Of a stretch of DNA of 53,950 nucleotides, positions 42,029-53,765 are shown piece by piece. The position numbers were made by a program, and so were the translations under genes. Location of the stretch: contig JAAYCX010000018.1 of NCBI GenBank assembly GCA_012729555.1, forward strand, positions 1 to 53,950, read 5' to 3'. Under the pieces are notes generated by a model. It made no database searches, had not been told where the DNA came from, and worked only from the letters and a program-made list of their open reading frames with translations. Every line of letters starts with the position of its first letter. The first letter of the stretch is position 1. The DNA comes from Acidobacteriota bacterium. GTDB taxonomy: Bacteria > Acidobacteriota > UBA6911.

Positions 42029-42211
42029 CTAGCCCGCATTATTCATGAGGCTCCTGCTGCGTCGGTGCAATCGGGCATGTCCACCGCGTTGCGCTTGGTC
42101 GGATTCCTCGACGTACTGTGAGTACGCCTGCGGAATCCTCCCGGCTCGCGCCTTGTATCCACACCCACCTGCGCCGCCTCGCGACGTACCCTCATGAATA
42201 ATGCGGGCTAG
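42029..42211. mobile_element. MITE-like element with perfect 22-bp terminal inverted repeats
   Basis: The ends are exact inverted copies: 42029-42050 starts CTAGCCCGCATT and ends ATGAGG, and 42190-42211 is its complement. The 139-bp interior codes for nothing but holds a nested hairpin, GGATTCC ... CGTACT-GTG-AGTACG ... GGAATCC, around 42100-42140. Size and structure fit a non-autonomous miniature element or structured interspersed repeat. Both ends carry CTAG. The right end supplies the TAG stop codon of the TIGR03790-type gene (42208-42210). No transposase lies nearby. Confidence 0.75.
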
Positions 42212-43995
42212 GGCGCCGGCTGGAGTTTCAGCCGGAGCTTCCGGACCTCCTCCCGCTGCTCCAGCTTGGGGTCGATCTCGAGCGCGCGCTGGAGGGCGAC
42301 CTCGGCCGCGAGCGTGTCACCGGTTTCGGCGCTGACGATGGCGAAGTGCAGGTGGAGTTCGGCATTGCGCGACTGCCCCCGGACCGCCTCTTCGAGCAGC
42401 TCGACCGCCCGGTCGTTTTGCCCCATCAGGTGGTGGATCCAGCCCAGGGTGTCGGCCACGCTCGGGTTCTGCTTCGACAGGGCGTAGGCCTTTTCCGCCA
42501 TCGGGAGCGCCTCCTCGAGGTCGTTCTTCCGCACGGCCAGGGCGAAGGCCAGGTTGTTCAGGACCACGGCGTTGTCCGGGGCGAGTTCGAGCAGCCGGCG
42601 GTAGAGGGCGATGGCCTTGTCGTGCTCCCCGGCCGTTTCGTAAAGGCCCGCCAGGAGGAGGCGGGGCGCCGCCAGGCGCTCGTCCCTCGCGACGGCCTCC
42701 TCGAGCGCCTGGATGGCCCCGGCCCGGTCCTGGCGCTGCATGCGCGCGTCGGCCAGGATCGTCAGCCGGGTGGTTTCCGGGTGGATCCCCTGGCTCGAGT
42801 AGGCCCGGGCGGAGAGGGTCTTGAGGCGCCGGGGGCCGAAGTCGGCCGGCAGTTCGGTCTGCGGGTCGAGTCCCCGGTCGATCTCCGCGGCGGCGAGGCT
42901 GCCGGTGCGGAATGGGGCCGAGAGCGGGTCCCCCACGATGACGGTCTGCCAGCCCAGGTAAGGGGTGGCCAGGTAGAACGATTCCACCAGGTTGAAGCCG
43001 GAGACGTACGCCGGAAAGAGGATGTCGGGCCGGACCGTCCCCTCGAGGAAGGGTTCGGCGACGTGGGCGCCCACGCCGGTGACGCCGCCGCGGATGAAAT
43101 CGGCCGCCAGGGTGGGCGGCCCCTCCGCTTCGGCCAGGCTCCACGGCCGGTCCGATTCGGCGAAGGTACGGCCGTCGGCCCCCGCGAAGGTGCCCGCCAG
43201 GGCGCCCGGGGCGAAGTCGAAGTCGAGCCGGCGCCGGCGCACCGCGGGGTCGTTGGAGCCCCAGGAGTAGTACCCCAGCGCCCTTCCGGTGGCGGTCAGC
43301 GCCTCGGCGGTTTCCTCGAGCACCACCCGGTCCCCCATCCCCAGGGCGGCCAGCCGGTCGGCCGCCGCCTTGAGCCAGACGTCCCCCTTCTGATCGGGCG
43401 TCCCCTTCGCGTCGAGCAGGATCTTCCCCTCACGGGAGGGGGCCGCCCCCCGGTCGATCAATCCCCTGGTCTCCTCCAGGTTGTAGCCGTCGAGCCGGCT
43501 GACCAGGTAGATGTCGTGTTCGGCGTGCCGGAACTGTTTCGCCTCCTCCAGGGGGGCGTCGCCCAGAAAGTAGGGGTTCGGCACCGGCCCCTCCGAGCGG
43601 ACCTGCTCGCCCGTCAAACGGCGGTAAAGGAGGGCCAGTTCGGAGTCTACCCCCGCCGCGGTTCCCGTCGGTCCCCCGCTCCCCTCGATCCGCAGGGGGA
43701 TTCCCCGGGCCAGCACGATGTACAGGATCCGGTCCTGGGCCCCCTGCCGTGTCAGGTAGGTGCCTATGGGGGCGGCGATCTGGCGGTCGAAATCCTCGCG
43801 CGAAACGGTCTCCCCTTCCGTGGTCCGGACCGCGATCACGTTCGATTTGGGGATGCCGCGCTTTTCGGCGTAATAGAGCCCCGTCTGGATCGAATCGCGG
43901 CTGGCCTGGTTCATGACCACGAGCACGTTGTCGGCCGTCTGCGCGCACAGGGGAGGGACGCATAACACGAGCAGAATCAGGATTCGAACTATCAT
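42208..43995 (-). CDS. TIGR03790-type exported protein with TPR tail
   Basis: 595 residues. Signal peptide MIVRILILLVLCVPPLCAQ. The main domain starts DNVLVVMNQASRDSIQTGLYYAEKRGIP and RILYIVLARGIPLRIEGSGG, the pattern I recognise as the uncharacterised TIGR03790 family, which occurs almost only in genomes with exosortase. Residues 420-590 form TPR repeats (AVVLNNLAFALAVRKN, SVADTLGWIHHLMGQND). Biochemical role unknown. The stop codon lies within the inverted end of the neighbouring MITE-like element. Start-to-start it is 71 nt from the divergent ExeA-like ATPase, so a shared control region is likely. Confidence 0.8.
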   Translation of the reverse strand: MIVRILILLVLCVPPLCAQTADNVLVVMNQASRDSIQTGLYYAEKRGIPKSNVIAVRTTEGETVSREDFDRQIAAPIGTYLTRQGAQDRILYIVLARGIPLRIEGSGGPTGTAAGVDSELALLYRRLTGEQVRSEGPVPNPYFLGDAPLEEAKQFRHAEHDIYLVSRLDGYNLEETRGLIDRGAAPSREGKILLDAKGTPDQKGDVWLKAAADRLAALGMGDRVVLEETAEALTATGRALGYYSWGSNDPAVRRRRLDFDFAPGALAGTFAGADGRTFAESDRPWSLAEAEGPPTLAADFIRGGVTGVGAHVAEPFLEGTVRPDILFPAYVSGFNLVESFYLATPYLGWQTVIVGDPLSAPFRTGSLAAAEIDRGLDPQTELPADFGPRRLKTLSARAYSSQGIHPETTRLTILADARMQRQDRAGAIQALEEAVARDERLAAPRLLLAGLYETAGEHDKAIALYRRLLELAPDNAVVLNNLAFALAVRKNDLEEALPMAEKAYALSKQNPSVADTLGWIHHLMGQNDRAVELLEEAVRGQSRNAELHLHFAIVSAETGDTLAAEVALQRALEIDPKLEQREEVRKLRLKLQPAP

Positions 43996-44002
43996 GGGGG
44001 CG

Positions 44003-44060
44003 ATGATAGCACAATCCGCTTTTTCAAAATATTGATTCCGCGCACCGGTGCCGATAGAGT
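44003..44060. promoter_or_regulatory. Divergent promoters of TIGR03790 and ExeA-like genes, both leaderless
   Basis: Rightward: TTGATT (44032-44037), 17-bp spacer, TAGAGT (44055-44060), 6 nt before the ATPase ATG. Leftward: extended -10 TGC-TATCAT (TATCAT at 44008-44003) ending 7 nt before the TIGR03790 ATG. Neither gene has a Shine-Dalgarno sequence, so both mRNAs would begin at or next to the start codon. Confidence 0.5.
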
Positions 44061-44066
44061 TATCTC

Positions 44067-45050
44067 ATGTACGAGAAATTCTACGGCCTCAGGGAACCGG
44101 CCTTCAACCTGACCCCCGACCCCTCCTTCCTCTTCCTGAACCAGCGGAGCAAGGGGGCGATCGAGCAGATCCTTTACAGCATCGAACGCCGGGAGGGGTT
44201 TGCGGTGGTGGTCGGCGACATCGGCACCGGCAAGACCACCCTCTGCTGGGCCCTGCTCGAGAGGCTCGCGCGCAGGGACATCCGCACCGCCCTGATCCAG
44301 AACCCGATGCTGTCGGAGATCGAGATCCTGAAGTCGATCCTGCAGGACCTGGGGGTGCGCCCGGAAGAGCCCGGGGAGCAACCCGGCGACCCCCTCGAGC
44401 GGATCTTCGACACCGAGTGGATGCGGGGGATGACCAAGAAGCAGCTGCTCGACCGGCTCAACATGTTCCTGGCCCGGCGCGCGGAGGAGGACATCTTCAC
44501 CGTCCTCATCATCGACGAGGCGCAGAACATGTCGCTCGGCCTGCTCGAGCAGATGCGGCTTTTGTCGAACCTCGAGACGGCGAAGAAGAAACTGCTGCAG
44601 ATCATCTTCGTGGGGCAGCTGGAACTGGACCGGAAACTGAAGTCCCCCACGCTGCGGCAGCTCAACCAGAGGATCTCCGTCCGGTTCGAGACCAAGCCGC
44701 TTTCGCGGGAGGATACCGAGCGCTACATCCGGCGGCGGATCGCGGTGGCCGGCGGCGCTCCCCGCCTCCGCTTCGGCACCGGCGCTTTCCGCTCCATCTG
44801 GCGCCACTCCGGCGGCTACCCGCGCCTGATCAACCTCATCACCGACCGGGCGCTGCTGGGGGGGTACCAGGAGCGGGCGGGCACGATCACGCCGCGCCTG
44901 GTGCGCCGCGCCGCCCGGAGCCTGCGGGGGGAGGAAAATTCGGCCGGTTTCAGATCGGGGTGGTTCCGCCGCCTGGTCCCCTATGCCGTCTCGGCCATCG
45001 TCCTGATCGCGGTGGTCTTCTTCATGGTCTACAGGGGCCTGGCGCAGTAG
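44067..45050 (+). CDS. ExeA/XrtA-associated-type AAA ATPase with C-terminal membrane helix
   Basis: 327 residues. MYEKFYGLREPAFNLTPDP is the hallmark start of ExeA/GspA and PEP-CTERM-associated (TIGR03015-like) ATPases. Walker A is GDIGTGKTT (K56), Walker B VLIIDEAQNM, sensor region LRLLSNLET and IIFVGQLEL. The C terminus ends with a membrane helix (LVPYAVSAIVLIAVVFFMVY, near residues 303-322). Homologues energise secretion or assembly of the cell-envelope machinery. The neighbourhood of TIGR03790 and polysaccharide genes favours the exosortase-linked type. No peptidoglycan-binding domain is seen. Confidence 0.83.
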   Translation: MYEKFYGLREPAFNLTPDPSFLFLNQRSKGAIEQILYSIERREGFAVVVGDIGTGKTTLCWALLERLARRDIRTALIQNPMLSEIEILKSILQDLGVRPEEPGEQPGDPLERIFDTEWMRGMTKKQLLDRLNMFLARRAEEDIFTVLIIDEAQNMSLGLLEQMRLLSNLETAKKKLLQIIFVGQLELDRKLKSPTLRQLNQRISVRFETKPLSREDTERYIRRRIAVAGGAPRLRFGTGAFRSIWRHSGGYPRLINLITDRALLGGYQERAGTITPRLVRRAARSLRGEENSAGFRSGWFRRLVPYAVSAIVLIAVVFFMVYRGLAQ

Positions 45051-45054
45051 GGGC

Positions 45055-46122
45055 TTACCGCGCCCCCCCGGAGACCACCTCCGCGATCCGCTCCCCCGCT
45101 TTCCCGTCCCAGAGCGGGGGCACCGACCCCGATTTCGCCTCGCCCGCGAGGATCTTGCGCGCCTCGGCTTCGAGCCGCTCCATGTCGCGCCCCACCAGGA
45201 TATTGCTCCCCACGGTCACGGTGACGGGCCGCTCGGTGTTTTCGCGCACGGTCAGGCAGGGGACTCCCAGGTAGGTGCTCTCTTCCTGGATGCCGCCGGA
45301 ATCGGTGATGATGAAGGCCGCGTGCCGCTGCAGCCCCAGAAACTCCAGGTAGCCGGCCGGGTCGGCCAGGCGCAGCCGGCCCGAAAGCTCGAGCCCCCCG
45401 ATCTGTCCCAGCATCCGGCGCGTGCGGGGGTGGACGGGGAAGACGATGTCGATTTCGGCGGCGATCCGGTTGAGCGCCCCGATGATGGCGCCGAGCCCCT
45501 CCGGGTCGTCCACGTTCGACGGGCGGTGGAGCGTGGCCAGGGCGTAGCTCTTGTCGGCATGGGGGGGCGGGACCGCCTGCGGCAGGAGGCGCACCAGGGT
45601 GTCGATCATCACGTTGCCGACCAGGTGGATCCGCTCCGGCGCCACCCCCTCCCGCACCAGGTTCTCGTTGCCGTCGGCCGACGGGGTGAAGAGGAGATCG
45701 GCCACCCGGTCGGTCAGGACGCGGTTGACCTCCTCGGGCATCGTCCGGTCGAACGAGCGCAGCCCCGCCTCGACGTGTCCGACGGGGACCAGGAGCTTGG
45801 CGCAAACGAGGGCGGCGGCCACGGTGGAATTGACGTCCCCGTAGACGAGCACCAGGTCGGGGCGGACGTCGAGGATCACCCGCTCGATCCGCACCATGAT
45901 TTCGGCCGTCTGCCCGGCGTGGCTCCCCGAGCCGACCTCGAGGTTGAAATCGGGGGCCGGGATCCCCAGCTGGCGGAAGAAGACGTCGCTCATGGCGGCG
46001 TCGTAGTGCTGCCCCGTGTGTACGATCGTCTGACGGACCCCGCCGCGGCGGGCCAGGGCCGCCTCGACCGGCGCCACCTTCATGAAATTGGGGCGCGCGC
46101 CGACGACGTGAAGTATCTTCAT
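45055..46122 (-). CDS. wecB: UDP-N-acetylglucosamine 2-epimerase
   Basis: 355 residues. Non-hydrolysing epimerase: start MKILHVVGARPNFMKVAP, then HTGQHYDAAMSD, VYGDVNSTVAAALVCAK, HVEAGLRSFDRTMPEEVNR, TLHRPSNVDD and TDSGGIQEEST. It converts UDP-GlcNAc to UDP-ManNAc for surface polysaccharide. AAAGGAGA precedes the ATG at 46122, so the longer frame to 46194 is rejected. Convergent with the ATPase gene (4 nt apart), divergent from the UDP-sugar dehydrogenase, with which it likely forms a UDP-ManNAc to UDP-ManNAcA or related route. Confidence 0.94.
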   Translation of the reverse strand: MKILHVVGARPNFMKVAPVEAALARRGGVRQTIVHTGQHYDAAMSDVFFRQLGIPAPDFNLEVGSGSHAGQTAEIMVRIERVILDVRPDLVLVYGDVNSTVAAALVCAKLLVPVGHVEAGLRSFDRTMPEEVNRVLTDRVADLLFTPSADGNENLVREGVAPERIHLVGNVMIDTLVRLLPQAVPPPHADKSYALATLHRPSNVDDPEGLGAIIGALNRIAAEIDIVFPVHPRTRRMLGQIGGLELSGRLRLADPAGYLEFLGLQRHAAFIITDSGGIQEESTYLGVPCLTVRENTERPVTVTVGSNILVGRDMERLEAEARKILAGEAKSGSVPPLWDGKAGERIAEVVSGGAR

Positions 46123-46356
46123 CCCTTCTCCTTTGGCTTTCGACAGGCTTTTCGGACCGGAAGGCAGTTTACTTGAACGATCTTTCGAATCCAAGGCCGC
46201 CCGTAATAGATTCCAATTTCCATTGCGGGGTTGCTACAATACCCCACCGGCCCGAAAGCCGGGACGCGGGCAAAAAATGCATGCGGGACGCGCTCCTGCC
46301 GATATGATCGTTGGCCGTGCACTACAGGCCAGGCACTGATAGGAAAGGAACCATTC

Positions 46357-47643
46357 ATGAAGATAGCCGTGGTGGGATTGGGATACGTGGGGTTGCCGCT
46401 GTCGCTGCAGTTCGCCCGGGCGGGGGTCGAGGTCCTGGGCCTCGACGTGGACCGGGCCAAGGTCGAGGCGTGTAACGCGGGCAGGAGCTACATCAAGCAT
46501 ATCGAGGCGGCCGACATCGCCGCGGTCGTGAAGGCCGGGACCTTCAGCGCCTCGGACGATTTCAGCCGGGTGCGGGAGAGCGAGGCCGTGATCATCTGCG
46601 TGCCGACCCCCCTCAACAAGAACCGCGAGCCCGACATCAGCTACATCGTCGAAACTGGGAAGGCGATCGCCCCCCACATGGCCAAGGGGTGCCTGGTGGT
46701 GCTAGAATCGACCACCTACCCCGGGACCACCGACGAGGACCTGCGCGCGGTCCTGGAGGAAGGGTCCGGGATGAAGGCGGGGGAGGATTTCCACCTGGCC
46801 TTCTCCCCCGAGCGCGAAGACCCGGGCAACCCCGACAGCAAGGTGGCGCTGATCCCCAAGGTGGTGGGGGGCTATACCCCGGAATGCCTCAAAAAGGCCT
46901 CCGCCCTGTACGGGAAGGCGATCCGGACCATCGTCCCGGTGTCGAGCTGCCGCGCGGCGGAAGCGACCAAGCTGCTGGAAAACACCTTCCGCGCGGTCAA
47001 CATCGCCCTGGTCAACGAGCTGAAGGTGGTCTACGAGGCGATGGACATCGACATCTGGGAAGTGATCCGCTCGGCCAAGACCAAGCCCTTCGGCTTCATG
47101 CCCTTCTACCCCGGGCCGGGGCTGGGAGGGCACTGCATCCCGATCGACCCCTTCTACCTGACCTGGAAGGCGCGCGAGTACGGCCAGAACACCCGCTTCA
47201 TCGAGCTGGCGGGGGAGGTCAACACCTCGATGCCCAACTACGTGGTGCACCGGGTGGCCGAGGCGCTCAACTCCCGGCGCAAGGCGCTCAACGGTTCGAA
47301 GGTGCTGATCCTGGGGATCGCCTACAAGGCCGACGTGGACGACGACCGCGAGAGCCCGAGCTACGTCCTGATGGACCTGCTCTCGAGGCGCGGGGCCGAA
47401 CTCAGCTACTACGACCCGCACGTCCCCGTCATCCGCCCCTCGCGCGAGCACTCGCACTGGGCCGGCACCCGCTCGATCGCCTGGACCCCCGAGGCGCTCC
47501 GCGCCTTCGACGTGGTCCTCATCTCCACCCAGCACGAGGCCGTCAACTACCGGGACCTGGCGGAGCACGCCGACTGCATCGTCGACGCCCGCAACGCCAT
47601 GGACGGGATCCCCACCCGCCCCGGGCAGGTCTGGAAGGCCTAG
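46357..47643 (+). CDS. UDP-N-acetyl-hexosamine 6-dehydrogenase (WbpA/WecC type)
   Basis: 428 residues. Rossmann start KIAVVGLGYVGLPLSLQFA, VPTPLNKNREPD, STTYPGTT, FSPEREDPG, KLLENTFRAVNIALVNEL, and catalytic Cys C260 in GPGLGGHCIPIDPFYLTW. The HCIPIDPFYL form is typical of the WbpA/WecC/TviB branch acting on UDP-GlcNAc, ManNAc or GalNAc, rather than UDP-glucose. It makes a UDP-hexosaminuronate, two NAD+ per turn. With the adjacent epimerase it would supply an acidic amino sugar for an exopolysaccharide or O-antigen. AGGAAAGGAA precedes the ATG. Confidence 0.92.
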   Translation: MKIAVVGLGYVGLPLSLQFARAGVEVLGLDVDRAKVEACNAGRSYIKHIEAADIAAVVKAGTFSASDDFSRVRESEAVIICVPTPLNKNREPDISYIVETGKAIAPHMAKGCLVVLESTTYPGTTDEDLRAVLEEGSGMKAGEDFHLAFSPEREDPGNPDSKVALIPKVVGGYTPECLKKASALYGKAIRTIVPVSSCRAAEATKLLENTFRAVNIALVNELKVVYEAMDIDIWEVIRSAKTKPFGFMPFYPGPGLGGHCIPIDPFYLTWKAREYGQNTRFIELAGEVNTSMPNYVVHRVAEALNSRRKALNGSKVLILGIAYKADVDDDRESPSYVLMDLLSRRGAELSYYDPHVPVIRPSREHSHWAGTRSIAWTPEALRAFDVVLISTQHEAVNYRDLAEHADCIVDARNAMDGIPTRPGQVWKA

Positions 47644-47650
47644 ACCCAAT

Positions 47651-47683
47651 GCCGGGATTCCATGGAAACCATGGAATCCCGGC
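47651..47683 (+). terminator. Strong hairpin / intrinsic terminator
   Basis: Perfect 15-bp arms (47651-47665 and 47669-47683, arm GCCGGGATTCCATGG) with an AAA loop, followed by AGATTTTTCTC. It starts 7 nt after the dehydrogenase stop and serves as its terminator. A near-perfect palindrome of this size could also be a remnant of a repeat. Confidence 0.7.
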
Positions 47684-47736
47684 AGATTTTTCTCTACACT
47701 GGGAAGGACCAAAAGCTGCAAATCGAGGGATCCTGT

Positions 47737-47970
47737 ATGACATCCACCGTCACCTCCAGGGGGCGGGTCACCATCCCCGTAGAAGCCCGGAAAAAGCTCC
47801 GGATCAAACCGGGGACCCGGCTGCGGTTCGTGGTGAGGGAAGACGGACGGCTGGAGGTGATCCCGCTCCTGGAATCATTGAAAAGCCTGAAGGGGATGGT
47901 TCCGAAGCCTGCGCGCAGGCTCGGCCTGGAGGAGATGGACGAGGCGATTTCGAAGGGAGCGCGCCGGTGA
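47737..47970 (+). CDS. AbrB/MazE-type swapped-hairpin protein, orphan antitoxin-like
   Basis: 77 residues. The SpoVT/AbrB fold is clear: STVTSRGRVTIPVEARKKLRIKPGTRLRFVVREDGRLEVIPL, then a short helical tail with SLKGMVPKPARRLGLEEMDEAI, as in VapB antitoxins. GAGGGA precedes the ATG at 47737. A VapC (PIN) partner normally follows with overlap, but the sequence after the stop runs at once into the end of ugd, so the antitoxin is orphaned or acts as a plain regulator. It lies alone between two sugar-dehydrogenase genes. Confidence 0.83.
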   Translation: MTSTVTSRGRVTIPVEARKKLRIKPGTRLRFVVREDGRLEVIPLLESLKSLKGMVPKPARRLGLEEMDEAISKGARR

Positions 47971-47993
47971 CAAGGCGATGATTCCTCCGGGAG

Positions 47994-49358
47994 TCAAAGG
48001 TGCTTCAGCGCCGGCTTCCCCAGCGGGTAGACGTTAAAGCCGATCTGGTGAAGCCGAGCGTGGTCGAGCAGGTTGCGCCCGTCGAACAGAAACGCCGGTT
48101 TTTCCATCGAGGCGTAGATCTTCTCCCAGTCGAGCCCGCGGTACATCTCCCATTCGGTCATGACCGCCACGGCGTGCGCCCCGCGGGCGGCTTCGTACGG
48201 GTCCTCCAGGAAATCCACCCCCTCGAGCCCCGCGAGATCGATCTTTGCGTTCGCGAGCGCCTTCGGGTCGCTCACGGCCAGGTTCGCTCTTTCTTCGAGC
48301 AGCTTGCGGGCGACGTGGATGGCGGGGGACTCGCGCGTATCGCTCGTGTCGGCCTTGAAGGCGAAGCCGAAGAGGGCGATGCGCTTGCCCACGATGGTGT
48401 TGAACATCTCGCGGATCATGGTGCGGACGAAGCGCGCCTCCTGGTATTCGTTGATATCGAGCACCGATTCCCAGTAGCGCGCCACCTCCTCGAGTCCGTA
48501 CGATTCGGAAATATAGACCAGGTTCAGGATATCCTTTTTGAAGCAGGAGCCGCCGAAGCCGACGCTGGCGTTTAAAAACCGGGCGCCGATCCGGCCGTCC
48601 ATCCCGATGGCGCGCGCCACCTCGCCAACGTCGGCGTCGGTCTTCTCGCACAGGGCCGAGATGCTGTTGATCGAAGAGATGCGCTGGGCCAGGAAGGCGT
48701 TGGCCACCAGTTTGGACAGCTCCGCGCTCCAGACGTTGCTGGTGAGGATCCGTTCCCTCGGGATCCAGTTGGCGTAGATGTCGACCACCTCCTGCCGGGC
48801 CCGGAGCCCTTCCGGTGTCTCGCGCGAACCGACCAGGACGCGGTCGGGGTGGAGCAGATCGGCGATGGCCGTCCCCTCGGCCAGGAACTCGGGGTTGGAG
48901 ATCACCTCGAATCGCTTCCCGTTGGCGTTGAGGATCTGCTCCATCGTCCGGGCGGTTTTGACCGGGAGGGTGCTTTTCTCCACCACGATCTTGGGGGAAT
49001 CGGCAACCCGCAGGATCTGGCGCGCCACCTTTTCCCAGTACTGCAGGTCGGCCGCCCGGCCCGCCCCTTCGCCGAAAGTCTTGGTCGGGGTGTTGACCGA
49101 AACGAAGATGATGTCCGATTCCCGGATCGCCGCGTCGATGTCGGTGGAGAAGAACAGGTTGCGCCCGCGGGCCTTCCGCACCACCTCGTCGAGCCCCGGC
49201 TCGTAGATCGGCAGCCGGTCGCTCTGCCACGCCCCGATCCGCTCTGCGCTGACATCCACGACCTGCACCTTGTACTCGGGGCATTTCAGGGCGATGACGG
49301 CCATCGTCGGCCCCCCCACATACCCCGCGCCGATACACGCGATCTTTTTGGAAAACAT
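47994..49358 (-). CDS. ugd: UDP-glucose 6-dehydrogenase
   Basis: 454 residues. [70 protein letters not shown] and the catalytic Cys in [18 protein letters not shown], all in the eukaryote-like UGDH pattern. It oxidises UDP-glucose to UDP-glucuronate with two NAD+. Together with galE and the amino-sugar genes it provides acidic sugars for envelope polysaccharide. Divergent from the CAAX-protease-related gene. Confidence 0.94.
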
Positions 49359-49425
49359 CCGCTATTTTCTCCCCAGGCAGTTTATCGTTCCTATCGGAGG
49401 ATGCAAAGAAATCAAGTATCTCCGG

Positions 49426-49454
49426 TTGCCGCCGATAAGTCACGAGGATAGAAT
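49426..49454 (+). promoter_or_regulatory. Candidate promoter for the CAAX-protease-related gene
   Basis: TTGCCG (49426-49431), exactly 17-bp spacer, TAGAAT (49449-49454, 5/6), ending 11 nt before the ATG. The predicted leader is only a few nt and carries no Shine-Dalgarno sequence. Confidence 0.5.
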
Positions 49455-49465
49455 AGGATCTTGCT

Positions 49466-50125
49466 ATGTTCAATAAAATAACGGCTTCACCCCTCCTGGT
49501 CCGCGTCCTTCCCTTCGCCCTCTTCGCCGCCCTGACCATGCTCCAGGGGCGCCTGGGCCCCGATTCGCAATACTGGGTCTACGCGCTCAAGACCGCGCTC
49601 GGCGCCTGGTGCCTCTGGGTGATGCGCCCATACGTCCGGGAAATGAGATGGAAATTTTCCTGGGAGGCGGTCGTGGTCGGGGCGGGGGTTTTCGCCCTTT
49701 GGGTAGGGCTCGACGGGCACTACCCGCTCCTGGCCGAGCGCTCCAGCGGTTTTAACCCTTCCGCCGCCTACGGTCCCGGCAGTCTGCTCGCCCTCTTCTA
49801 CATCGCCGTCCGCACCCTCGGCTCCACTCTCGTGGTCCCGCCGCTCGAAGAGGTCTTCTACCGCTCCTTCGTCTACCGCTACCTGGTCCGGCCCGATTTC
49901 CTGGGTGTCCCGCTCCGGCACTTCAGCGTGCGCGCCCTCGCGATCACCGCCGTCGTCTTCGGGATCGGCCACTTCGAGTGGCTCCCCGGCATCCTCTGCG
50001 CCCTGGCCTACCAGGGCCTGGTCCTCTACAAGAACCGGCTGGGGGACGCGATCACGGCCCATGCCGTCACCAATCTCCTGCTCGCCCTCTGGGTCGTCAC
50101 CCGCAGCCAGTATCAATTCTGGTAG
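49466..50125 (+). CDS. CAAX prenyl protease-related (CPBP) membrane protein, exosortase-associated type
   Basis: 219 residues with about six membrane segments. CPBP motifs: EExxxR as E128-E129-VFYR, H169 in FGIGHFEW, and H199/N203 in TAHAVTNLLLA. The size and the PPLEEVFYRSFVYRYL segment fit the CAAX-protease-related family TIGR03008, found beside exosortase genes. Intramembrane proteases of this group cleave near lipidated or membrane ends; a role in maturing PEP-CTERM proteins has been proposed for neighbours of exosortase but is not proven. No xrt gene is in this window. It ends 12 nt into a small antisense frame. Confidence 0.85.
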   Translation: MFNKITASPLLVRVLPFALFAALTMLQGRLGPDSQYWVYALKTALGAWCLWVMRPYVREMRWKFSWEAVVVGAGVFALWVGLDGHYPLLAERSSGFNPSAAYGPGSLLALFYIAVRTLGSTLVVPPLEEVFYRSFVYRYLVRPDFLGVPLRHFSVRALAITAVVFGIGHFEWLPGILCALAYQGLVLYKNRLGDAITAHAVTNLLLALWVVTRSQYQFW

Positions 50126-50301
50126 GCTGGGCAATCCTCGTCGGCCTCCCGCACCATTTCCGGCGTCAACGGGGGCGCATTTTTCGAAACCGAAAACGAA
50201 GGGATCTGCTCCTTCCTCCGCTTCGAGATCCTGCTTCCGGCTTCGGTCATCCGCTCCGGTAGCCGCTTCGGGTCGGCATTCCCGCACATTCTCTTTTTCA
50301 T
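50113..50301 (-). CDS. Possible small protein (62 residues), unrecognised
   Basis: The frame runs from an ATG at 50301 to a TGA at 50113, overlapping the end of the CAAX-related gene by 13 nt. A minus-strand TATAAT (50314-50309) lies 7 nt upstream. The translation starts MKKRMCGNADPKRLPERM and is basic and hydrophilic, with two cysteines and a SKRRKEQ patch. I recognise no family. It could be spurious; support is only the promoter-like motif and codon-like composition. Confidence 0.25.
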   Translation of the reverse strand: MKKRMCGNADPKRLPERMTEAGSRISKRRKEQIPSFSVSKNAPPLTPEMVREADEDCPAYQN

Positions 50302-50409
50302 AGGAAATATTATAATGCTTTGGCGTCCAGGGAACCATGAAATCCGCGCAGGGGTAATTTTCTCCAGCACTCCGGCCAAAACAAGCCCATGGCAGGAAAT
50401 CAACAGTTC

Positions 50410-50425
50410 GGTGACTGGAGTCACA
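50410..50425. promoter_or_regulatory. CRP/FNR-family-like site, distal
   Basis: GGTGA-N6-TCACA, nine of ten positions of the CRP half-sites TGTGA-N6-TCACA. Shares the longer core GTGAC-N4-GTCACAC with the site at 50683-50698. Confidence 0.45.
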
Positions 50426-50550
50426 CCCGCATCCTCCCCCTGTCCGATACGGGAAAGCGTCAGTGTATTGAAGTCTCAATCGCAGAGGTGAGAAATGGAA
50501 ACGGATAAGGAACTGAAATTATCCGCTGTTTTATGGCTGTGAATTGTCAC

Positions 50551-50604
50551 CCCCCTCGGGTCCGGCCGCCCGAATCCATCACGTGAGGCGACCGGACCCG
50601 GGGG
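50551..50604 (+). terminator. Long GC-rich hairpin in the intergenic region
   Basis: The arm CCCC-T-CGGGTCCGG (50552-50565, one bulged T) pairs with CCGGACCCGGGGG (50592-50604). The 3' side reads CTTCCTTTCCC, pyrimidine-rich rather than a U tract. It could end a short upstream transcript or insulate the operon promoter. Confidence 0.45.
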
Positions 50605-50682
50605 CTTCCTTTCCCATTCTTCACTTCCTTGACTCCTTCCCAAGCCCGTTTTTACGAAAAAATTAATGGAATAGTTCATTCG

Positions 50683-50698
50683 GGTGACATCCGTCACA
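50683..50698. promoter_or_regulatory. CRP/FNR-family-like site, proximal
   Basis: GGTGA-N6-TCACA, nine of ten half-site positions, 95 nt before the inhibitor ATG. Contains the perfect inverted repeat GTGAC-ATCC-GTCAC and the same 3' extension AC as the distal site 273 bp upstream. Confidence 0.5.
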
Positions 50699-50730
50699 CA
50701 GCCCCCGCGCTTCCGTCCGATAAGTTCAGC

Positions 50731-50773
50731 GTCCCCGGAAACCGGTCCGGGGACGGCGGCCGATTGGCCGCCG
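50731..50773 (+). promoter_or_regulatory. Two tandem leader hairpins before the inhibitor gene
   Basis: GTCCCCGG...CCGGGGAC (50731-50754) abuts CGGCGGCC-GATT-GGCCGCCG (50754-50773), both perfect 8-bp stems sharing one base. GGAGG (50783-50787) and the ATG follow within 20 nt. Likely RNA structures in the 5' leader that stabilise the mRNA or gate translation. No known riboswitch consensus is recognised. Confidence 0.5.
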
Positions 50774-50792
50774 GGCCTTTTCGGAGGGATGT

Positions 50793-51284
50793 ATGAAGTC
50801 GGGTAACTCCCACTCTTTCTTTATGATAACCGCACTATCGGGGCTCTTGTTCGCCACCACCGCAGCCTGCGCTCAAAACAGGACCAGCATGAACCAGGAC
50901 ACCGGCGCGAAAACCCAGGCTGAGGTCTCACAGGCGGACGGGGAACAGAACGGTCCCGTCATCGTCGTCGACAAACAGTTCAATAACCGCGAAATCAAGG
51001 TGAGAAAAGGCGGCCTGTTTGTGGTCGAGCTCGAGCAGCTGGGGTCGGCCGGCTACGAATGGGTGGTATCGGAACTCGACGAGACTTCCTTCGAAATCGT
51101 GCAGGTGGACACCCTGGAGGAACCGCAGCCCGGCGACGTCACCGGCGCCCCGGTCACCCGGCAATGGCGGATCCGGGCGAAGAAGGAAGGGAATCCCTCC
51201 ATCCGTTTTTTGCATCGCAGGCCCTGGGAAGGTCCGGAAGAAGCTTCGGACCGCTTCGAACTCAAGGTCCGAATTCTCCCCTGA
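50793..51284 (+). CDS. Chagasin-like (I42) cysteine-protease inhibitor, exported
   Basis: 163 residues. A signal sequence (FFMITALSGLLFATTAACAQ; Cys26 might be lipidated but the lipobox is poor) precedes an Ig-like domain from about residue 48. Chagasin loops are recognisable: L4 as G84-S-A-G-Y88-E-W90 (family NPTTGY), the final loop as R143-P144-W145 (family RPW), and a middle loop DVTGAPVTRQW replacing GxGG. Chagasins block papain-type proteases by wedging three loops into the active-site cleft. A papain-family protease follows 21 nt downstream on the same strand, so the two form an inhibitor-enzyme pair. GGAGG lies 5 nt before the ATG. Confidence 0.85.
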   Translation: MKSGNSHSFFMITALSGLLFATTAACAQNRTSMNQDTGAKTQAEVSQADGEQNGPVIVVDKQFNNREIKVRKGGLFVVELEQLGSAGYEWVVSELDETSFEIVQVDTLEEPQPGDVTGAPVTRQWRIRAKKEGNPSIRFLHRRPWEGPEEASDRFELKVRILP

Positions 51285-51305
51285 GGAATATACAAGGAGA
51301 CAACC

Positions 51306-52712
51306 ATGGTTTCAGTAAGTGGATTGAAAAAATTGATGAGTCTGACGCTGGTGCTTTTCCTGGCGTTCGGCGCCACGGCGGTTTTCGCCCAACCCGACGA
51401 AGAGGTCGAAAACATCCGGCAGATGATCAAGGCCAAAAACGCCCGGTGGCACGCCGACAAGACCTCCGTTTCCGGACTGTCCCTGAAAGAGAAGAAAAAG
51501 CGGCTTGGCGGGGAGGAATTCGAGGACCTGATGGCGGCCTCGCTTTCGTCGGACGTGGCGGCTCCGATTCCCCAGGTCACCGGCCTCAACGGCACCCTCG
51601 ACTGGCGCAATGTCGAGGGCACGGCCTACGTCTCCCCGGTCAAGAACCAGGGCTCCTGCGGCAGCTGCTGGGCTTTCGCCACTGCCGCCGGCCTCGAATC
51701 CCAGGCCATGATCAGCACGGGCGGCCTCCCGATCGACCTTTCCGAGCAGACCCTGGTGTCCTGCAGCGGCGCTGGTTCCTGCACCAGCGGTTCCATTGGG
51801 GTCGCTTCGAACTTTCTCCGGGATGTGGGAATCCCGGTGGAGAGCTGCTTCAAGTACACGGCTAGCAACAATGTGTGCACCAATGCCTGCCTGAACTGGC
51901 AGGACGCCGCCTATCGGATCACCGGCTGGCATGTGGCCAGTACCAAGACCGTCACCGTTGACGACATGAAGAACGCCCTGTACTCCTATGGGCCCTTCAT
52001 TGCGACAATGCTTGTTTACAACGACTTCGCTTCCTATCGCAGCGGGGTTTACAGCTATACCACCGGGTCGTATCTTGGCGCCCATGCGGTTCTTGTAGTC
52101 GGATTCGACGATGAGCAAAGGGCGCTGATTGTTAAAAACAGCTGGGGAAGCGGCTGGGGGGAGGCGGGATATTTCATGATCTCCTATGATGAAATCGGCG
52201 GCACAAGCCGGTTCGGGTACTCCACCATGGTTTATGACGGATACGCTGGAGACCCGGACCCGGAGCCTGCCCCGGCCCCCATTATCGAGCCGGATCCCGA
52301 ACCGGCGCCCGAGCCCGAACCGGTTCCCGATCCGGCTCCGGAGCCGTGCACCCTTTCCCTCTCGTCGAGCGGGACTACCTTCAAGGCCGCGGGCGGCAGC
52401 GGCAGCTTCACGGTCTATATGTCCGGGTCCTGCTCGGCCGCATCTTTCAGCGCCATATCGAGCGCCTCGTGGGTGACCATCAGTTCGATGCAGAGTTCGA
52501 ATGGCAGCGTGAAGGTAACCTACTCCGTTTCAGTGAACAGCGGCGTAGCCCGAGAGGCGAGGATTGATATTTCGGGCCAAATCCATAACGTAAAGCAGCT
52601 TGCGGCAAAGGTCTTCAACCGCAACAAGCCGGGAAAGGCAAATATTGTCAAAAAGCCGTCAAAGACAAGAAATGCCAGCGTTACAAACAGGGTGAGCAGG
52701 ACAATCTGGTAG
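51306..52712 (+). CDS. Exported papain-family (C1) cysteine protease with BACON-like domain
   Basis: 468 residues. A signal peptide (ending ATAVFAQ) and a propeptide (about 30-95, charged, with KEKKKRLGGEEF) precede the C1 domain from DWRNVEG. Active-site residues are Q115 and C121 (NQGSCGSCWAF), H260 (GAHAVLVVGFDD) and N278 (VKNSWGSGWGEAGYF). A proline-glutamate linker (about 320-350) leads to a beta domain with CTLSLSSSGTTFKAAGGSGSF, SASWVTIS and ARIDISGQIHNVKQ, matching BACON-type modules. Probably a secreted or surface protease. The chagasin-like inhibitor just upstream likely protects the cell. No PEP-CTERM tail; it ends in a basic stretch. Strong terminator 29 nt later. Confidence 0.93.
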   Translation: MVSVSGLKKLMSLTLVLFLAFGATAVFAQPDEEVENIRQMIKAKNARWHADKTSVSGLSLKEKKKRLGGEEFEDLMAASLSSDVAAPIPQVTGLNGTLDWRNVEGTAYVSPVKNQGSCGSCWAFATAAGLESQAMISTGGLPIDLSEQTLVSCSGAGSCTSGSIGVASNFLRDVGIPVESCFKYTASNNVCTNACLNWQDAAYRITGWHVASTKTVTVDDMKNALYSYGPFIATMLVYNDFASYRSGVYSYTTGSYLGAHAVLVVGFDDEQRALIVKNSWGSGWGEAGYFMISYDEIGGTSRFGYSTMVYDGYAGDPDPEPAPAPIIEPDPEPAPEPEPVPDPAPEPCTLSLSSSGTTFKAAGGSGSFTVYMSGSCSAASFSAISSASWVTISSMQSSNGSVKVTYSVSVNSGVAREARIDISGQIHNVKQLAAKVFNRNKPGKANIVKKPSKTRNASVTNRVSRTIW

Positions 52713-52740
52713 GCTGAAACCTGAAGTTTATGCAGTAAAC

Positions 52741-52769
52741 AAAAGGGTGCGGCCATGCCGCACCCTTTT
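52741..52769 (+). terminator. Intrinsic terminator of the inhibitor-protease operon
   Basis: Perfect 13-bp arms (52741-52753 AAAAGGGTGCGGC, 52757-52769) with loop CAT. The 3' arm ends TTTT, and A4 on the 5' side makes it work in both directions. Confidence 0.88.
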
Positions 52770-53126
52770 GGCTTCGACCGAACCAATTCTCCTGGCGTTC
52801 ATCCCCCCTTGTGATCGATTCGCCATTTTTCAGGAGTTTTTGGCCTGGTTTCGAGCGGATTCCTCTCTCGCCCCACGCAACATATCCCACAAAAATCCAG
52901 GAATGTAAAATATACCGTCACTTTTGGAGGATTTCTCTAAACAAGCCAAATAAAACGCTCCATTCCCTGCTCGGGGGAGGATGAGCGTAAAGTATTTAAA
53001 ACATACGAGATCGAAAATCATTCCCCAGTCGCAGATATTTTGCGCACCATGAAGGGTGTCGAATATTTTTACAGTCCGTCCGAGGGTCTCCCGCCGAAAT
53101 TCAATATTGTCAAGACATTGCCTGAT

Positions 53127-53142
53127 TGGAAGAATAATTGCT
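53127..53142 (+). promoter_or_regulatory. Candidate sigma-54 (-24/-12) promoter of the PEP-CTERM gene
   Basis: TGGAAGAATAATTGCT: the invariant GG (53128-53129) and GC (53140-53141) are exactly 10 nt apart and the -12 half is a full TTGCT. The -24 half matches TGG and A of TGGCACG. Predicted start is about 53153, 40 nt before the ATG. Known PEP-CTERM regulons are often under PrsR and RpoN, which fits. Confidence 0.55.
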
Positions 53143-53192
53143 TAAAATTGTTTGGAAGTTTGGATGAGAAATATCGGGACGGAGGAACTGAA

Positions 53193-53765
53193 ATGAATAA
53201 ATCATTGATGGTTTTGGGAATAGCGCTCTTCGCATTGTTCGTGGGCACGGCCGCCGCGGATCCGATTGTCTACGATGAAGGTGGTAACTACTACCTTCCG
53301 GCTGCTACCGGAGAGGAGACCAGCCAGGCACAAATTAATGTCGCCATTACGCCTTACTGTTCATCTCCCGCCTGCACGGAATTGTACAAAGAAAATGTCG
53401 GCGATGGCTACGATACGGGCACGTATGCTGCTTCTTACGAAACAGAATTTTTCAATGACCCCGACGATCCGCAGGAAGCCACGATTACCTATGTCGCACC
53501 TCCGCCCCTGGTGGATGCTATGTTCCTTCTGGTCAAGGATGGGAATCATGACCCGGCATGGTATCTCTTCAATATCGCGGGGTGGGATGGTGTGGATACC
53601 CTGTACATGGAGGATTTCTGGCCGGGCGGTGGGGCGATTTCCCATGTTACTCTCTATGGCGGCGGCGGTACAGGGATAACGATCGTTCCCGAACCGGGTT
53701 CGCTCCTGCTTCTAGGTACTGGATTTATCGGACTGGCGCTGGCTTTGAGGCGGCGGCAGAGATAA
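53193..53765 (+). CDS. PEP-CTERM sorting-domain protein
   Basis: 190 residues. Signal peptide MNKSLMVLGIALFALFVGTAAA, a middle of about 140 residues without a recognised domain (acidic, aromatic-rich, one CSSPAC pair), and a textbook PEP-CTERM tail: VPEPGSLLLLGTGFIGLALALRRRQR, i.e. V-PEP motif, hydrophobic helix, basic end. Exosortase would cleave at the PEP motif and the protein would leave the membrane for the surface or exopolysaccharide matrix. GGAGG lies 7 nt before the ATG at 53193; the longer upstream frame is not used. It has its own promoter and terminator. Confidence 0.93.
   Translation: MNKSLMVLGIALFALFVGTAAADPIVYDEGGNYYLPAATGEETSQAQINVAITPYCSSPACTELYKENVGDGYDTGTYAASYETEFFNDPDDPQEATITYVAPPPLVDAMFLLVKDGNHDPAWYLFNIAGWDGVDTLYMEDFWPGGGAISHVTLYGGGGTGITIVPEPGSLLLLGTGFIGLALALRRRQR

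Follow-up and report, generated by a model that had tools for sequence, protein, structure and literature searches.

A chagasin-family gene directly preceding a papain-family protease gene in an acidobacterium: a candidate protease–inhibitor operon with counterparts in several phyla

Introduction

Why would a bacterium encode a chagasin-family (I42) protein directly before a papain-family (C1) cysteine protease? In chagasin, the loops L2 (NPTTG), L4 (GxGG) and L6 (RPW) do the inhibiting (PMC2607524), and a paper from 2016 described the role of bacterial chagasins as not known (PMC5014320). Protease–inhibitor operons are a known kind: in the staphopain–staphostatin and SpeB–Spi systems a protease and its specific inhibitor are juxtaposed and co-transcribed, for which self-protection has been proposed, and in Bacteroides a C10 cysteine protease is co-encoded within tens of bp with the inhibitor Bfi, which is predicted to be exported to the periplasm or membrane (PMC2873492). 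The locus analyzed here lies in a 53,950-nucleotide stretch of acidobacterial DNA, hereafter the window. A sequence-only reading had proposed that its two genes form a self-protection or regulatory module controlling a surface protease, and we examined the families, folds, neighborhoods and histories of both proteins.

Results

Organization of the I42–C1 locus

The two genes lie adjacent on the same strand, separated by a short gap (Table 1), and this arrangement recurs in relatives, so that they look like one operon; it is the short spacing that suggests co-transcription. The ORF boundaries, strand and spacing reported earlier proved exact, and the motifs named for the inhibitor (GSAGYEW, RPW) and the protease (Q115/C121/H260/N278, Pro/Glu linker) are all present. 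A genome-wide family search identified these two neighbors as the sole I42 and the sole C1 of the source genome. The preceding likely plus-strand gene ends at 50125, which gives the unit the appearance of a two-gene one, and a promoter scan returned no convincing sigma-70 match upstream of the I42 gene. Of the shared terminator proposed earlier, a hairpin stands at the expected place, but its T run is short and the terminator scan did not list it, making it a likely terminator only. No toxin delivery marker was seen beside the pair. The next ORF downstream (window 53040–53765) encodes a PEP-CTERM protein (PF07589), which hints at an exosortase system in the organism.

Table 1. Features of the I42–C1 locus, in window coordinates
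Feature	Position	Strand	Basis
I42 (chagasin-family) inhibitor gene, 163 aa	50793..51284	+	Pfam, PDB sequence matches, AlphaFold model
L2 loop region GSAGYEW, residues 84–90 (canonical: NPTTGY)	51042..51062	+	sequence; loop definition PMC2607524
L4 loop GAPV, residues 118–121 (canonical: GxGG)	51144..51155	+	sequence, alignment
L6 loop RPW motif, residues 143–145	51219..51227	+	sequence
Intergenic gap, 21 nt, with ribosome-binding-like AAGGAGA before second start	51285..51305	+	sequence
C1 papain-family protease gene, 468 aa	51306..52712	+	Pfam, solved-chain matches, AlphaFold model
Propeptide, approximately residues 28–85	51387..51560	+	W48, A50, G68 invariant in 25 aligned homologues; model
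Terminator-like hairpin 3' of second gene, CAAAAGGGTGCGGC CAT GCCGCACCCTTTTG	52740..52770	+	z -4.5

The first gene encodes an I42 protein with variant loops

The inhibitor begins with a putative signal peptide, which could instead be a lipoprotein signal (..TTAACAQN), followed by a linker and an Ig-fold domain at approximately residues 55–163. It matched the Pfam Inhibitor_I42 profile (PF09394) over positions 2–91 of 91 with an E-value of 6.2e-18 and 65.3 bits (cut-off 27.2), and a phmmer search against solved chains matched amoebiasin-2 and chagasin. The AlphaFold2 model, made with 17 sequences, had a pLDDT mostly above 90 in the domain. Foldseek placed EhICP2, amebosin and chagasin at the top for this model, and VIA gave Z values of 14.6–16.1 (EhICP2 16.1, chagasin 15.3) compared with 8–9 for unrelated rows. 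The I42/chagasin-like identity proposed earlier, which a failure to match I42 would have undermined, is thus clear by profile and by fold. A plasmid search with the inhibitor sequence gave no match.

As in the MEROPS I42 members chagasin, amoebiasin/EhICP2 and Pseudomonas ICP/Cip1, the Ig-type fold carries L2, L4 and L6 at one end, and the RPW/F motif of L6 is present. Unlike them, the protein has LGSAG in L2 and GAPV in L4, in place of the canonical NPTTG and GxGG, which are typical but not universal. Many proteins above the I42 cut-off differ at L2 and L4, and we therefore based family membership on profile and fold. In chagasin, L2 length is generally important; T31S and T32A hardly altered the Ki for cruzipain, and T31A or T31Y shifted target preference between enzymes (PMC2607524). 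T31S and T32A are the chagasin changes closest to the Ser-Ala of the window inhibitor, and L2 length is retained there, suggesting that its loops are variant, not evidently broken. Having neither the NP of NPTTG nor a GxGG motif, the protein cannot be assumed to be inhibitory. We also considered lipid anchoring as a general trait of these inhibitors and rejected it: by eye, lipobox-like cysteines could be made out only in some pairs (L042, L050, L081), and in the window inhibitor the assignment is ambiguous.

The second gene encodes a C1 protease with its own propeptide

The protease consists of a putative signal peptide, a cathepsin-B-like propeptide, a catalytic domain (residues 97–296), a Pro/Glu linker (approximately 316–349), a BACON-like domain and a basic tail. 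It matched Pfam Peptidase_C1 (PF00112) with an E-value of 2.3e-47 and 162 bits (cut-off 20.7), and the catalytic residues Q115, C121, H260 and N278 are invariant in 25 homologues. The closest solved sequences are dipeptidyl peptidase I and cathepsin L/H. In Foldseek searches with the AlphaFold model the top matches were proenzymes, procathepsins L and B aligning over approximately 300 columns including the propeptide. The enzyme thus shares with family C1A (procathepsin B/L, dipeptidyl peptidase I) the Q-C-H-N set, the proenzyme fold and a cathepsin-B-like W-x-A propeptide motif, and differs in being bacterial and in carrying the Pro/Glu linker and the BACON-like C-terminal domain.

The C1 profile, the proenzyme fold and the invariant propeptide residues bear out the earlier description of a C1 enzyme with a propeptide. 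The BACON-like domain is borderline at 24.4 bits against a cut-off of 25, with two homologues at 24.7 and 26.6. Judged by eye, the N-termini of both window proteins resemble signal peptides, and both are probably exported via Sec. Relatives carry bacterial Ig, Kre9-like, RCC1 and cytochrome domains in the same C-terminal place; such modules would fit a secreted or surface enzyme. A search of the protease revealed no anchor or sorting signal, which leaves the "surface protease" of the sequence-only reading unproven. In the sister protease (end of L040, the C1 gene of G006), a long EPEPTPEP repeat, inside which the contig breaks, takes the place of the short Pro/Glu linker of the window.

I42 and C1 genes are neighbors in several phyla

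We scanned genome contigs with a C1 alignment and obtained 80 loci, 17 of which had an I42 in their flanks; flank searches covered 1.5–7 kb, with C1 and I42 calls made there by profiles built for this analysis. The best matches repeat the window layout, with the I42 gene first, mostly short gaps and signal-like N-termini. Such window-like loci were found in Deltaproteobacteria (L072), Desulfobacteraceae (L073), Nitrospira (L078), Smithella (L079) and Nitrospirae (L083, L121), and in Syntrophobacterales (L081) in the same order with a longer gap; whole-genome searches added L165, L214 and L215. Overall, the I42-first order occurs in Deltaproteobacteria, Desulfobacteraceae, Smithella, Syntrophaceae and Nitrospirota, with gaps of mostly ~6–34 nt. 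Archaea, Chloroflexi, Calidithermus, Methylobacterium and other Acidobacteriota have the C1 gene first and then the I42 gene, or convergent pairs, and the I42 of C1-first lineages usually has the canonical NPTTG and no signal peptide. The varied order and orientation argue for a functional tie rather than accidental inheritance.

An I42 above the cut-off was present in 29 of 396 Acidobacteriota genomes, adjacent or fused to a C1 in 13 of these, and in 59 of 395 Desulfobacterota genomes, adjacent or fused in 12. By a rough estimate, chance would give ~0.1 adjacencies among the 50 genomes holding both families. Because many of the genomes are MAGs with short contigs, adjacency is undercounted. 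Among 259 Pseudomonadota genomes, 13 non-seed genomes had an I42, and none of the 13 had a C1 within 1.5 kb; the window gene, by contrast, lies directly before a C1 gene. The earlier generalization that most bacterial I42 genes have no obvious protease beside them therefore holds for the Pseudomonadota sampled but gives way in Acidobacteriota and Desulfobacterota, where linkage recurs as the sequence-only reading had anticipated for related genomes.

The two families also co-occur at the genome level. A C1 was found in 22 of the 29 Acidobacteriota genomes with an I42 versus 84 of the 367 others (p 1e-8), and in 28 of 59 versus 77 of 336 in Desulfobacterota (p 2e-4), both tests ignoring phylogeny. 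Likewise ignoring phylogeny, variant L2 loops were associated with C1 adjacency (8/17 versus 6/47, p 0.006), and their association with the presence of a C1 in the genome was borderline (p 0.052). With that borderline value, a strict rule that variant L2 loops occur only where the genome has a C1 is too strong, and we rejected it.

Some pairs depart further from the window arrangement. In two Acidobacteriota (L048:4515-7087, G083; L055:5767-8032, G115), a C1 without an evident signal peptide and with a repeat-type C-terminus (DUF346 in L055) is directly followed by a small I42, a layout that recalls effector–immunity pairs. At L051:6014-8056 (G346), a single C1 gene precedes a tandem of two I42 genes whose loop sequences differ, and the partner C1 in a Nitrospirae MAG (L121:3738-7979) is a 1414-aa protein with RCC1 repeats, Ig domains and cytochrome c7/c3-like heme domains behind the protease. 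On the minus strand of L065:5301-6937 (G288, Acidobacteriota), a 333-aa protein combines an IrrE/ImmA-type M78 peptidase domain with a following I42 domain, and its gene overlaps by 4 nt that of a small, weakly matching C1 protein; this looks like a cytoplasmic regulator or a toxin–antitoxin-like unit.

Inhibitor and protease share a history

To place the window inhibitor, we built an I42 tree from unlinked as well as C1-paired proteins. It sits in a clade of 20 members (support 0.96), 12 of them C1-adjacent, which spans Acidobacteriota, Desulfobacterota and Nitrospirota. The members mostly lie directly before an exported-looking C1 and have altered L2 and L4 loops, and the variant loops are a sub-family trait. 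Among the nearest relatives, the branching ((window, L040), L072), L073 is identical in the I42 and C1 trees, and pair distances within the window's group correlate with a Mantel r of 0.77 (12 pairs), or 0.61 without near-duplicates (p 1e-4). Together these results indicate that the module travelled as a unit, probably between phyla. Within the same clade, five I42 genes (L166, L168, L211, L216, L241) have no C1 within 1.5–3 kb and a C1 elsewhere in the genome, and one (L221, G697) belongs to a genome in which no C1 was found. L243:2833-4793 (G404) carries two near-identical I42 genes of this clade, separated by ~1.2 kb, and their surroundings contain no C1 out to 3 kb.

Of the relatives that have the pair, the closest is Acidobacteria bacterium AS06rmzACSIP_118 (L071, the same sequence as G006), in which the 21-nt gap is kept. 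Between it and the window both genes are under purifying selection, with dN/dS of about 0.2–0.27 for the I42 and 0.13 for the C1. Within the window's genus the pair was found in two sampled species only (G000, G006), and as their flanks are 90% identical, its retention there could by itself be plain synteny. Across window 42200–52700, the genes flanking the pair are ~90% identical to L040 and the pair itself 79%, the C1 gene having the higher dS; recombination with a more distant copy may have taken place at the locus.

I42 domains occupy the propeptide position in fusion proteins

We also identified single-chain I42–C1 fusions: ten proteins in eight genomes of three phyla, namely Acidobacteriota (G057), Chloroflexi (G420) and Desulfobacterota (G721, G566 twice, G744, G580, G537 twice, G497). 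Three of the ten were checked with Pfam-A, and one of the fusions (L176) is 512 aa long. In all ten, the I42 domain immediately precedes the catalytic domain, which is the position of the propeptide, and the W-x-A propeptide motif was found in none. The fusions retain the catalytic Cys and His and the L2 and L6 loops of I42, and they occupy at least two places in the I42 tree. Given its place, the I42 domain would most simply be read as an inhibitor of the enzyme to which it is attached, and the fusions may be zymogens that hold themselves inactive through a chagasin prodomain. Two Desulfobacterota genomes each encode two different fusions in tandem (L222, G566; L226, G537).

Discussion

We consider it probable, at roughly three chances in four, that the locus is a protease/cognate-inhibitor operon in which the I42 protein would serve as the protease's dedicated off-switch in the envelope. 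Read in this way from sequence, the inhibitor would be made first and both proteins exported. The protease would leave as a zymogen restrained by its own cathepsin-B-like propeptide, and the I42 protein would be retained or released in the envelope. There, its L2, L4 and L6 loops could enter the active-site cleft of any protease matured too early or left behind, so that the producer would be protected and the place and time of proteolysis would be set by the inhibitor. Self-protection or timing as the purpose is suggested by analogy with SpeB–Spi, staphopain–staphostatin and Bacteroides C10–Bfi. Against an off-switch count the propeptide that the protease already has and the members of the window clade with no C1 nearby.

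One rival reading is that the inhibitor has its targets outside the producer, in C1 enzymes of predators, hosts or competitors, and shares an operon with the protease merely because both serve exported proteolysis. P. syringae Cip1 inhibits plant C1 enzymes, and an endogenous C1 is absent from most Pseudomonas (PMC5014320); our Pseudomonadota sample, with no I42 near a C1, agrees with this. An outward role would nevertheless leave unexplained the adjacency in many orders and orientations, the fusions, the matched trees and the co-occurrence, and the window clade does not share the canonical loops of orphan I42 proteins, so that we regard it as unlikely. The fusions, in which I42 stands where a propeptide would and the propeptide motif is missing, would also suit a trans-acting folding or secretion partner resembling a free prodomain, with inhibition as a by-product. 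The window protease, however, keeps its own propeptide with W48, A50 and G68 invariant and should need no further folding helper, which makes this role more improbable still.

A toxin–immunity module, in which the protease would attack other cells and the I42 protein shield kin, is suggested by the pairs that lack a signal peptide, encode the C1 before the I42 and end in repeat-type C1 C-termini (L048, L055). In the window, the I42 gene comes first, both proteins have Sec-type N-termini, the protease has a propeptide and no delivery marker was seen alongside, and we give this reading very little weight. Hitch-hiking or chance adjacency with no functional tie could account for a pair confined, within the window's genus, to two sampled species with syntenic flanks. 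It is scarcely credible given recurrence in several phyla against the ~0.1 expected and a fusion that arose at least twice.

As a dedicated off-switch, the window inhibitor is fairly compared with staphostatin, as the sequence-only reading had done, although the inhibitor types of the staphopain and SpeB systems are unrelated to it. Staphostatins stay in the cytoplasm and their genes follow that of the protease, whereas here the inhibitor gene comes first and its product has a signal-like N-terminus. Bacteroides C10–Bfi is closer in layout, its inhibitor being likewise predicted to be exported, and differs in having a C10 rather than a C1 enzyme and a staphostatin-like inhibitor rather than a chagasin. 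Both families at the window locus are known; a chagasin/C1 version of such operons in bacteria is what we did not find described. The open literature searched, with subscription journals mostly outside it, held no report of bacterial I42–C1 operons or fusions or of the variant-loop clade, and we claim no priority.

A more tentative, rather doubtful proposal is that the chagasin fold originated in prokaryotes as a dedicated control of C1 enzymes, either as an operon partner in trans or as a replacement prodomain in cis, from which the free, outward-acting inhibitors of Pseudomonas and protozoa would be derived. If so, the ten fusions in which I42 replaces the propeptide would represent a new class of zymogen. 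The pairing itself suggests a job for bacterial chagasins: many of those in bacteria and archaea have an obvious target from their own genome, encoded beside them or fused to them. Their role thereby becomes testable on single pairs, and the natural matched sets of inhibitor and protease lend themselves to studies of loop specificity.
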